Source of the DNA: Gillisia hiemivivida | GTDB taxonomy: Bacteria; Bacteroidota; Bacteroidia; Flavobacteriales; Flavobacteriaceae | Reading direction: 5' to 3' | DNA: 64,000 bases | Assembly: GCF_007997295.1 (NCBI RefSeq) | Contig: NZ_VORY01000017.1 | Location: 1-64,000 of the forward strand | Part shown: positions 3,733 through 58,152 of the stretch, piece after piece | Numbering within the stretch: position 1 is the first letter of the stretch | Layout of the letters: every line of letters begins with the position of its first letter | Position numbers and translations under genes: made by a program | The notes under the pieces: generated by a model | Database searches by the model: none | What the model was told of the DNA's origin: nothing | The model's input: the letters and a program-made list of their open reading frames with translations, nothing else

Positions 3733-3875
3733 AATCAAGAACCTCGGGGCAAGCCCACGAGGGATGTCCCGATGGTTCGGGAGGAAAATACTTTTAAAAA
3801 TTCGAGGTAAGCCCGCCTGAATGAGATTCTTCTCGGGCAGGTCTCGGGGAATTAAACCCTCAATGAGGGATTAAA
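3733..3875 (+). repeat. Dispersed hairpin repeat, copy A
   Basis: A 143-base copy of a family found five times in this window (26488, 52940, 56301 and 58041 are the others), all on the plus strand. It begins AATCAAGAACCTCGG and ends AATGAGGGATTAAA. It folds as CCTCG..CGAGG around GGGC/GCCC, then TCCCGA-TGGT-TCGGGA, a variable GCCCG..CGGGC arm, and CCCTC-AAT-GAGGG at the end. Confidence 0.9.
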
Positions 3876-11864: not shown

Positions 11865-12312
11865 CGTCATGCTGTCCCGAAGCTTCGAGAGTTTCAGTAT
11901 CTCAGTAATTTCAGATGAGATCCTGCAATGAATTACCATTGACGTATTTTTCGTTGCCCCAAATAAGAGACCCTGAAACTAGTTCAGGGCGACGATACTG
12001 TTTTAACTGCCGTCATGCTGAACTCGTTTCAGCATCTTTCAAACGTCAATTTACTACGCTAGATAATTTTTTTTATCATGGGTCTACCATTTGACGTATT
12101 TTTCGTTGCCCCAAATAAGAGACCCTGAAACTAGTTCAGGGCGACGATACTGTTTTAACTACCGTCATGCTGTCCCGAAGCATCGGGAGTTTCAGCATCT
12201 TTCAAACGTCAATTTACTACGCTAGATAATTTTTTTTATCATGGGTCTACCATTTGACGTATTTTTCGTTGCCCGAAATAAGAGACCCAGAAACTGGTTA
12301 CCATTGGCGTAA
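11865..12312. repeat. Tandem palindromic repeat array after dnaN
   Basis: Two near-identical units at 11941-12092 and 12093-12255 are flanked by partial copies (11865-11940 and 12256-12312). The units match base for base except for one substitution and an exchanged hairpin: GCTGAACTCGTTTCAGC in the first, GCTGTCCCGAAGCATCGGGA followed by GTTTCAGC in the second. The GTCATGCTGAAC..TTCAGCATCT motif is a common flavobacterial dispersed repeat. No convincing gene is present. Confidence 0.85.
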
Positions 12313-12389
12313 TTCCAAGAATCTGAAATATACTCCCTTTGGTCGGTATTGATTTTTTTAATATTTGAGATTGTTCATTTTTTTGTTTG

Positions 12390-12662
12390 TCCAAATCCCG
12401 ATAGCAATCGGGAGAAACAAAAGAAAAGGACACTTTTTTGTAGGTGTTTCCAATTACGCTGCCGCATAATTGGAATCGTACTTCCCCGGCTAAATTTTCT
12501 CCAAGCCCGCCTGAACGGAACGGGCAGGGCTTCGAAAATTTTACGCCAGGGAAGTACTACACTTGCAAAAAAGAAGTTTTTAAAAAAATAAATCAGCTAG
12601 AAACAATCATACGTCAAAAACCTACGCTAGATAATTTTTTTATCATGGGTCTCAGTATGACG
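12390..12662. repeat. Cluster of long imperfect palindromes
   Basis: Successive stems are TCCCGAT/ATCGGGA (12396-12413), CCAATTA/TAATTGG (12450-12473) and an 80-base imperfect palindrome. The arms of the last (12478-12499 and 12534-12557) begin GTACTTCCC and end GGGAAGTAC, with an inner GCCCG/CGGGC stem. At 12611-12661 a partial copy of the upstream array unit returns. Open frames here have no protein-like character. Together with the array this explains the whole 947-base gap. Confidence 0.7.
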
Positions 12663-13157: not shown

Positions 13158-14648
13158 ATGATTTTAAACGATACCATAGTAGCTTTGGCTACCCCATCTG
13201 GTTCAGGGGCAATTGCAGTGATACGTGTTTCTGGTCCAGAAGCAATAAATATAGTTTCCCCACTTTTCGTGGCAAAGTCTAAAAAAGAATTAAAAAAGCA
13301 GCCTACACATACGCTTCATTTAGGAAATATCATTGACGGAGCACGTATTATAGATGAAGTCTTGGTATCTATATTTCATGGGCCTAAGAGTTATACGGGA
13401 GAACATACAATTGAGATCTCTTGTCACGGAAGTCAATATATCCAACAAGAGATCATTCAGTTATTAATTCGGAATGGGAGTCGCTCTGCGGAAGCAGGGG
13501 AATTTACTTTAAGAGCTTTCCTGAATGGAAAAATGGATCTTAGTCAGGCTGAAGCTGTTGCAGATCTTATTTCTTCTGAAAATTCTGCGTCTCACCAAAT
13601 GGCAATGCAGCAAATGCGTGGTGGCTTTTCTAATGAAATTCAGAAGCTGCGTCAGGAACTTTTAAATTTTGCTTCTCTAATAGAACTGGAGCTCGATTTT
13701 GCTGAAGAGGATGTGGAATTCGCTAACAGAGATGAGTTTCAGAATTTAGTAACTCGTATCCAACAAGTGCTTAAAAAACTGATCGATTCCTTTGCAGTTG
13801 GAAATGTGCTAAAAAACGGAATTCCTGTTGCTATTGTTGGGGAGCCGAATGTGGGTAAATCTACCTTGCTGAACGCACTGCTAAATGAAGAGCGCGCCAT
13901 CGTTTCAGAAATTGCAGGAACTACTCGTGATACTATTGAAGATGAAATAAGTATTGGCGGAATAGGTTTCAGATTTATAGATACCGCAGGAATCCGTGAA
14001 ACTCAGGATATAATTGAAGGCCTTGGAATAAAAAAGACCTTCGAAAAGATAAGTCAGTCGCAGGTGGTAATTTATCTGCTAAGTGCAGATAAGCTCGGTC
14101 ATGCTGAACTTGTTTCAGCATCTCAAGAATCAGAGACCCCAAAATCTCCCGATGCCTCGGGACAGGGTGACGTTGCTTTTACAAAAAATATCCAAGTAGA
14201 ACTCCGAAAGATCCATAATCAGTTTCCACAAAAGCCATTGCTTATTATTGTAAATAAAGTGGATACGCTAGAACCAAAAGAGTTAGAAAATTTACAACAA
14301 GAATTAGAAGTCATCTCTCGAGGAGTTGAGAAATCTCAATACCTACTGCTATCTGCTAAAACGGGAATGGGCGTAGAAGAACTACAGCAAAAATTATTGC
14401 AATTCGTGAATACTGGCGAGTTAAGGAACAATAATACTATTGTGACCAATAGCAGGCATTATAATGCGTTGCTTAGCGCTTTAGAAGAGATCAACAAGGT
14501 ACAACAAGGATTAAATGATAATCTTTCTGGAGACCTTATGGCAATAGATATCCGCCAGGCTTTATATCATTTTGGAGAGATCACCGGAGAAATCACCAAC
14601 GATGACCTACTAGGAAATATCTTTGCTAACTTCTGTATTGGCAAGTAA
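13158..14648 (+). CDS. mnmE: tRNA modification GTPase MnmE with in-frame repeat insertion
   Basis: A 496-residue MnmE, which with MnmG modifies U34 of certain tRNAs. The N-terminal folate-binding domain (about 1-120), the inserted G domain and the C-terminal FCIGK are all present. G motifs: GEPNVGKST, DTAGIRET and NKVD. Residues about 314-339, starting GHAELVSAS, lie between the DTAG and NKVD motifs. They are encoded by a copy of the dispersed repeat seen upstream at 11865-12312, and the protein is about 25 residues longer than the usual 455-475. The frame stays open through the insertion, so the gene is probably functional. Confidence 0.95.
   Translation: MILNDTIVALATPSGSGAIAVIRVSGPEAINIVSPLFVAKSKKELKKQPTHTLHLGNIIDGARIIDEVLVSIFHGPKSYTGEHTIEISCHGSQYIQQEIIQLLIRNGSRSAEAGEFTLRAFLNGKMDLSQAEAVADLISSENSASHQMAMQQMRGGFSNEIQKLRQELLNFASLIELELDFAEEDVEFANRDEFQNLVTRIQQVLKKLIDSFAVGNVLKNGIPVAIVGEPNVGKSTLLNALLNEERAIVSEIAGTTRDTIEDEISIGGIGFRFIDTAGIRETQDIIEGLGIKKTFEKISQSQVVIYLLSADKLGHAELVSASQESETPKSPDASGQGDVAFTKNIQVELRKIHNQFPQKPLLIIVNKVDTLEPKELENLQQELEVISRGVEKSQYLLLSAKTGMGVEELQQKLLQFVNTGELRNNNTIVTNSRHYNALLSALEEINKVQQGLNDNLSGDLMAIDIRQALYHFGEITGEITNDDLLGNIFANFCIGK
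14097..14173 (+). repeat. Dispersed palindromic repeat inside mnmE
   Basis: This 77-base segment carries GTCATGCTGAACTTG, TTCAGCATCT, AGAGACCC, TCCCGATGCCTCGGGA and CAGGGTGACG in the same order as the intergenic array units near 12 kb. It is translated in frame in mnmE and reads GHAELVSAS at its start. Confidence 0.88.
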
Positions 14649-26149: not shown

Positions 26150-26662
26150 AAGTTATTATTCATTTTTGGAGGTGTACATTCAAATATACACATACAATAA
26201 AGGAAGTGCCTTAAAGCGAATTCTTTATTTTTAGACCAAATTGAATCTATACCAAGCAAGATCAAAAAACCTATAGCTTTTCTAGCTTCTGCTTTTTGTA
26301 AATCAGCTCCGTCCCTGTAAGTTGCGGTTTCATCTTAAAACTGGAATCTCACGACCAAATAAATTTTGCTGATAAAAATAGCATTATATCAATTTCTGGT
26401 ACTTAAAAAACAGCTTACAATTAAAAGATCATATTTGATTTAAAAATGATCACGAAGCGGGATGATGGATTTATACTTAAAGGTGCAAATCAAGAACCTC
26501 GAAGCAAGCCCGCCCGAACGGTACGGGCGGGCCTACGAGGTATGTCCCGATGGTTCGGGAGGAAAATACTTTTAAAAATTCGAGGCAGGCCCGCCTGAAT
26601 GTTTCGGGCAGGCCTCGGGGAATTAAACCCTCAATGAGGGATTAAAGATCCTATCATTTAAT
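26150..26662. other. Intergenic region containing dispersed repeat copy B
   Basis: Between converging genes. The left 340 bases show no coding signal. Repeat copy B occupies 26488-26646. Confidence 0.6.
26488..26646 (+). repeat. Dispersed hairpin repeat, copy B
   Basis: The longest copy (159 bases). The first module carries an extra hairpin, GCCCGCCCG (26508-26516) with CGGGCGGGC (26524-26532), absent from other copies. The TCCCGA-TGGT-TCGGGA core and the AATGAGGGATTAAA end are unchanged. Confidence 0.9.
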
Positions 26663-52939: not shown

Positions 52940-53052
52940 AATCAAGAACCTTGGGGCAAGCCCACGAGATATGTCCCGATGATTCGGGAGGAAAACCCTT
53001 TCAAAAGTTCGAGGCAAGCCTCGGGGAATTAAACCCTCAATGAGGGATAAAA
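52940..53052 (+). repeat. Dispersed hairpin repeat, copy C
   Basis: A 113-base copy lacking the variable GCCCG..CGGGC arm: GAGGCAAGCCTC closes directly. The core is TCCCGA-TGAT-TCGGGA. It has more substitutions than other copies (CTTGG for CTCGG, CCCTTTC for TACTTTT). Confidence 0.88.
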
Positions 53053-55973: not shown

Positions 55974-56608
55974 TGTAACACAAATTAATTAAAGATAAAA
56001 GTCGGGGAATTCGCGCTACCCCGGCTCAAAACTAAAAAAGCTATTTTATTAAACACTAATCCTTTTCATTAGTTTTGTCTTTTTAACATTTTTTATATTC
56101 TTATTTATCACGACTTCCATTTTCTAAAAAGTATACAGAGTACTTTATCTCAATCATTTTAAATTCCACATCCCATTAGCCTGCATAAAATATTGCTAAA
56201 GCAGAGACATAAAGACAAGAAGAACTTATATCGTTACCACAGATTGCAGTAGCTTCGAACTCATTTAATTTTTTACGCATGGTAAAAATTTTTAATCAAA
56301 AATCAAGAACCTCGGGGCGAGCCCACAAGCTATGTCCCGAGGTTTCGGGAGGAAAATACTTTTAAAAATTCGAGGCAAGCCCGCCTGAATGAAATTCTTT
56401 TCGGGCAGGCCTCGGGGAATTAAACCCTCAATGAGGGATTAAATTTTAAAACTAAAGAAAATATGAAGTTTTGGTATAAAAATCAACTTAAATATCTTTC
56501 TTAAAGTTAGAATTTAATTTCTTCACTAATACCTCACTTTAGATTCAGTTTAGATTTATTCCATACATTTGTTAACAATTCTAGAGAAAACCATCCAATC
56601 TATATTTA
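55974..56608. other. Divergent intergenic region with repeat copy D
   Basis: Between the leftward PAP2 gene and rightward GT2 gene. The repeat copy occupies 56301-56443. The rest is AT-rich without an evident gene or RNA. Confidence 0.6.
56301..56443 (+). repeat. Dispersed hairpin repeat, copy D
   Basis: A 143-base copy very close to copy A, including the variable arm with CGGGCAGGCCTCGGGG. The core is TCCCGA-GGTT-TCGGGA. It has the same orientation as all other copies. Confidence 0.9.
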
Positions 56609-58040: not shown

Positions 58041-58152
58041 AATCAAGAACCTCGGGGCAAGCCCACGAGGTATGACTTGGAAAATACTTTTAAAAATTCG
58101 AGGCATCCCGAATCATCGGGACGGGGAATTAAACCCTCAATGAGGGATTAAA
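58041..58152 (+). repeat. Dispersed hairpin repeat, copy E
   Basis: A 112-base copy. The first TCCCGA/TCGGGA hairpin is missing (only a TATGACTTGG joint). The variable arm is replaced by TCCCGA-ATCA-TCGGGA. The ends are as in other copies. Confidence 0.9.

Follow-up and report, generated by a model that had tools for sequence, protein, structure and literature searches.

Short hairpin repeats oriented with replication in Gillisia are probably a non-autonomous family of an IS200-type insertion sequence

Why should a handful of short repeats, dispersed among genes that point in every direction, all read on the same strand? The question was raised by a stretch of 64,000 nt of Gillisia DNA (here called the window), for which a preliminary description had listed five hairpin repeats with fixed ends and had offered a non-autonomous mobile element, a structured RNA and a replication-oriented signal as explanations. 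All five copies are indeed present on the plus strand (Table 1), the 11-nt left word having five exact matches in the window, one per copy, and the right end word GATTAAA being replaced in copy 3 by GATAAAA. Their differing lengths bear out the variation of the internal hairpin modules. The ends are fixed in the sense that the end words are there, but the last 5 to 6 nt (ATTAAA) are target DNA and not part of the element. Each copy is flanked by ORFs of 100 aa or more, and the neighboring genes are codirectional at 3733 and 26488, divergent at 52940 and 56301 and convergent at 58041, so that the uniform orientation holds despite mixed surroundings; five like orientations taken alone would be weak evidence.

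Table 1. Repeat copies in the window and landmarks of copy 1
Feature	Position	Strand	Length	Sequence or target	Remark
Copy 1	3733..3875	+	143 nt incl. target		two inserted hairpin modules
Copy 1 under the IS608-like rule	3734-3870	+		target TTAAA, 3871-3875	
Copy 2	26488..26646	+	159 nt incl. target	target TTAAA, 26642-26646	three inserted hairpin modules
Copy 3	52940..53052	+	113 nt incl. target	target TAAAA, 53048-53052	
Copy 4	56301..56443	+	143 nt incl. target	target TTAAA, 56439-56443	
Copy 5	58041..58152	+	112 nt incl. target	target TTAAA, 58148-58152	
Hairpin H1, copy 1	3742..3762	+		CCTCG GGG CAAG CCC A CGAGG	right-end hairpin of the putative active (bottom) strand
Right-end guide tetranucleotide, copy 1	3763-3766			GATG; family consensus TATG	directly after H1
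Terminal hairpin, copy 1	3857..3869	+		CCCTCAATGAGGG	adjoins target

The element carries no gene and measures about 100 to 160 nt. Its 101-nt core consists, in order, of AATCAAGAACC, hairpin H1 (CCTCG-GGG-CAAG-CCC-A-CGAGG), a variable A/T-rich stretch, hairpin H3 (CGAGG-CAAG-CCTCG), GGGAATTAAA, a CCCTC-AAT-GAGGG hairpin and ATTAAA. Some copies are longer through palindromic modules, and relatives contain 43-nt forms, apparently the result of deletion between two CCTCGGGG repeats. When covariation was examined across 55 sequences, three pairs of the inner H1 stem showed two-sided change, in 6, 15 and 7 of them, and the other two stems showed none; the bulged A and the CAAG loop of H1 were constant in at least 90% of sequences. 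Elsewhere in the window, a second repeat block (11865-12641; families D6-D9) has units about 150 to 160 nt apart with hairpins and contains CGTCATGCTG...CAGCATCT palindromes; Tandem Repeats Finder reported no array there. Palindromes resembling the hairpin modules (GCCCGCCTGAACGG..GGGC and TCCCGATGnnTCGGGA) also occur outside the copies, at 12505-12530, 12173-12188 and 14147-14162; perhaps the modules are mobile or REP-like palindromes in their own right.

A covariance model located at least 146 copies in the host genome at E<=0.01, a lower bound, as only 150 candidates were scored, and a genome-wide search for the joined end words returned 18 matches against 0 for a reversed-pattern control. 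With the host counted, matches at E<=0.001 were obtained in 11 of 16 genomes of the genus and 17 of 100 genomes of the family; at this threshold five of the 16 genus genomes, three of them one-contig assemblies, contained no copy and one contained a single copy. The 27-nt right end was found exactly in 56 stretches of named records, including those of Salegentibacter, Gillisia, Aquimarina, Galbibacter and Maribacter, and had no exact match among viral contigs. Copy midpoints fell inside an ORF in 0 of 37 cases in the host, 0 of 15 in genome G108 and 1 of 15 in genome G021, compared with 78 to 81% of random points. No published description of the family was found in the open-access literature searched.

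Comparison with relatives suggests that the repeats have moved. Copy 56301 has clean empty sites in genomes G113 and G106, and copy 58041 has one in G113; at copy 52940, G106 has a site without the element, whose left flank aligns only loosely. The empty sites read flank-ATTAAA-flank, with no element and no target duplication; this evidence comes from the 4 of 10 printed alignments that were readable, the others being diverged or cut, and for copies 3733 and 26488 no orthologous locus was present among the relatives' loci fetched. Insertion thus takes place just 5' of ATTAAA. The junction is ambiguous by one A, and the guide rule discussed below favors TTAAA as the target and ATCAAG...GAGGGA as the element. 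In the complete genome G021, which has 20 copies, near-identical copies stand in different flanks, the 15 that were compared differing by 1.9 nt on average. Together with an insertion sequence (IS) that has the same ends, these observations sustain the earlier suggestion of a non-autonomous mobile element, for which a lack of empty sites would have been an objection.

That IS came to light through a covariance-model match to the end of an IS200-type element in G102, a genome identified through an identical 1,200-nt stretch as Gillisia limnaea, a member of the host's genus. The IS has tnpA as its only gene and shares both end hairpins and the junction with the repeats. G102 yielded seven tnpA matches of equal score, and the four loci that were read share the left hairpin, the right hairpin and the ATTAAA junction in differing flanks, each starting with AGTAAATAATCCTCGGGGCAAGCCCACGAGGCATT and ending with CGAGGCAAGCCTCGGGGAATTAAACCCAATAGAG followed by ATTAAA, with tnpA on the strand opposite to the element's plus strand. 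The parent TnpA matches the NCBIfam IS200/IS605 transposase model NF033573 (E=6.8e-34) and eight PDB entries, the ISHp608 transposase among them, and has relatives at E<=1e-15 in 20 of 299 family genomes. Visual inspection of twelve other tnpA loci with 53 to 81% identity showed both ends of the family type in 11 and only the right end in one, L357. At E<=10, the model matched 16 of 23 tnpA loci of 46 to 81% identity, several weakly and one (L379) away from the gene, and 0 of 7 loci of 31 to 37% identity.

Nothing in the host itself matches the parent TnpA at E<=1e-15. Its three Y1 matches comprise one RAYT and two IS200-type genes with other ends, and these genes were rejected as parents, as were two G108 Y1 genes beside copies that by eye have ends of their own. 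An origin from a group II intron, a Helitron or IS91 was no longer considered once the tnpA parent appeared. Also in G108, L226 (G108:C1:4060934-4061293) is an IS200-type tnpA with two in-frame stops, situated between element copies 0.7 kb apart. Ten carriers (G021, G003, G029, G073, G075, G080, G104, G105, G106 and G113) gave no PF01797 hit, and the simplest reading is that the parent was lost after amplification. It is conceivable, though unlikely, that an unrecognized enzyme moves the elements in Y1-less hosts such as G021, with its near-identical copies, and that paired guide and cleavage changes have retargeted the family several times (TTAA, TTAT, TTAC).

The ends were examined against the guide rule of IS608, which includes the pair G4:C4. 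In that system, according to the accessible text of PMC5934647 and PMC6006769, guides 5' of the hairpins pair with cleavage tetranucleotides, the pairs A16:T-3 and A17:T-4 being among them. We took G1:C2 and G2:C1 from the accessible text of PMC5934647 and added G4:C4 as a third pair; the alignment was reduced from 92 to 86 rows by removal of six weak or doubtful ones and to 85 by removal of one gapped row. All three pairs held at 64 of 85 left ends and 43 of 85 right ends (at least one was missing from 21 and 42, respectively). These counts exceeded every one of 2000 guide shuffles, whose maxima were 49 and 34, but the shuffles are not strict probabilities, because the register was fixed post hoc, with the cleavage site shifted by 1 nt and the left guide placed 3 nt away from its hairpin, and the rows are kin. 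When the ends were crossed, all pairs held in 9 and 5 of 84 rows. G3:C3, a pair outside the rule, is uninformative, because it too forms in most rows (76 and 72 of 85).

The right guide lies directly 5' of the hairpin foot, and the left guide is separated from the H3 stem by CCC. On the bottom strand, the Gillisia type has guide/cleavage combinations of CATA/TGAT (right) and AATT/TTAA (left); most of the G021 copies listed have AATG/TTAC (right) and AATA/TTAT (left), and most G080 and G094 copies have AATG/TTAC at the left. Copy 1 of the window lacks one of the three pairs. Among 12 full-length IS, the varying pairs held in 12, 11 and 12 cases, many with identical letters; their ends were typed by hand, and a pattern check recovered 11 of 12 left ends (not that of L358) and, being too strict, 3 of 12 right ends. 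The three-pair rule superseded our initial candidate guide, the ATTAAA repeat beside the terminal hairpin.

Orientation was compared with third-position GC skew corrected for gene strand in G021, a single contig. All 20 stretches carry the sign of their region, which is negative between 3.2 Mb and 1.0 Mb (running across position 0) and positive between 1.2 and 3.0 Mb; 19 of 20 copies follow the skew, lying on the plus strand in the negative region and on the minus strand in the positive region. In G108, also one contig, region bounds were set by eye (32 of 40 stretches had the sign of their region, 6 the opposite sign and 2 zero); 70 of 87 placed copies agreed with the skew and 17 were reversed, with four more between the scored regions, and of the best-scoring 40 copies, 34 of the 38 placed agreed. 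Raw GC skew did not fit orientation in this genome; the third-position skew of plus and minus genes did. In the host, 80 of the 146 copies were considered, and 60 of 71 agreed on six contigs, the window's contig among them. A further contig, C50 (nine copies, four plus and five minus), was excluded because both skew and orientation switch along it; when it was treated as one contig with pooled skew, agreement was 65 of 80. Skew on contig C49 is weak (-0.014). Same-strand neighboring copies numbered 71 of 111 in the host, a value not above every shuffle (mean, 55.3; maximum, 74). Across the scored genomes, 5 to 20% of placed copies were reversed, and orientation is nonrandom genome-wide; random orientation would have done away with the strand bias.

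The G-rich strand is usually the leading strand in bacteria, and in G021 it bears about 62% of the coding length (20 stretches summed). If it leads, the bottom strand of the element, the putative active strand with the target at its 5' side, lies on the lagging-strand template, as in IS608. The dnaA gene of G021 (G021:C1:3286636-3287121) lies near the skew switch that we took as the terminus, and an origin at that switch would flip the assignment; in G108, dnaA is near neither switch and is therefore a poor marker here.

We conclude, with a probability of roughly 0.93, that the repeats are a non-autonomous PATE (single-strand MITE) family of an IS200-type IS of the IS200/IS605 family: they are numerous, share their ends with tnpA-bearing IS, insert at TTAAA without duplication and are oriented with skew, and their guides and cleavage sites change together. 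We suggest that a Y1 HUH transposase (TnpA) acts in trans, and that such an enzyme moved the host copies, recognizing the end hairpins of the bottom strand while that strand is single stranded on the lagging-strand template. Cleavage would occur where the target (bottom-strand 5'-TTTAA) and the right-end tetranucleotide pair with the guides near the hairpins, and the freed strand, a putative circular intermediate made by TnpA, would be pasted on the 3' side of another TTTAA. IS200/IS605 elements insert into single-stranded DNA at replication forks, and movement of the repeats through such DNA by an IS200-type TnpA is the proposed reason why copies share a direction. The mobile and replication-oriented readings would then both be right and go back to one cause: orientation does follow replication, but as a consequence of the place of insertion and not as a signal.

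A host signal of the KOPS or Chi type, kept in orientation by selection, would also account for the tracking of skew in three genomes, but it sits poorly with genus members that have one copy or none, with element-free sites in relatives, with ends common to IS and with the reversed minority, and we consider it highly improbable. A structured regulatory RNA or UTR element, to which H1 covariation and intergenic position might point, fares no better: copies in the window are all plus amid ++, --, divergent and convergent neighbors, orientation tracks skew, Rfam gave no match for the window at gathering thresholds, and the covarying hairpins are shared with tnpA-bearing IS, so that an RNA function is not needed to explain them. 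Slightly less improbable, though still very doubtful, are REP- or BIME-like repeats mobilized by a host RAYT (TnpA-REP). In the accessible text of PMC6006769, REP elements are intergenic hairpins that occur in many copies and are associated with Y1 HUH enzymes via RAYT; our copies are likewise numerous intergenic palindromes linked to Y1 HUH enzymes, and the host has one RAYT (L077; NF047646, E=1.5e-30). At that locus (G000:C49, 1405-1959), however, the model has no match at E<=1, copies do not flank the gene, and the palindromes nearby are of another type, CGCGGATTACAAATCCGCG. The element also differs from REP sequences in being two-ended, in inserting precisely and in having no link to the host RAYT locus; its ends are those of an IS200-type IS, and G106, with its 24 copies, gave no Y1 hit.

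The PATE family proposed here resembles IS608 and other IS200-type elements in its subterminal hairpins, a target on the 5' side of the left end (active strand), absence of target duplication, guide/cleavage pairing and an apparent lagging-strand-template bias. H1 carries a bulged T on the bottom strand, as does the IS608 hairpin. Unlike IS200-type IS, it has no gene, measures about 100 to 160 nt and has extra hairpin modules, and its left guide lies 3 nt away from the foot of H3, whereas that of IS608 is directly beside its hairpin; its target is TTTAA, with TTTAC or TTTAT types in some relatives. The accessible part of PMC3119063 describes PATEs of Haloquadratum walsbyi as too short to encode a transposase and free of inverted terminal repeats and of target duplication, with near-terminal palindromes that resemble IS605-type ends; shorter ends-only forms also occur. 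Our family matches them in having no transposase gene, no inverted terminal repeats, near-terminal palindromes related to IS605-type ends, no target duplication and ends-only forms; unlike them, it is bacterial and has a tnpA-only parent, and the orientation and guide co-change measured here do not appear in that part of the PATE account. For an IS605 family, the accessible text of PMC7290912 reports a single PATE-like sequence and an absence of strand preference, with 10 of 22 tnpA genes located on the leading strand; strand bias is therefore not universal.

Our reading explains a strikingly strand-biased repeat family of the Flavobacteriaceae and adds to the PATEs a bacterial family that is compact, is present in many copies and has an identified parent. 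It makes available many natural guide/cleavage pairs on which the base-pairing code of IS608 can be tested, and the orientation of the copies may also serve to mark replication direction in draft genomes.
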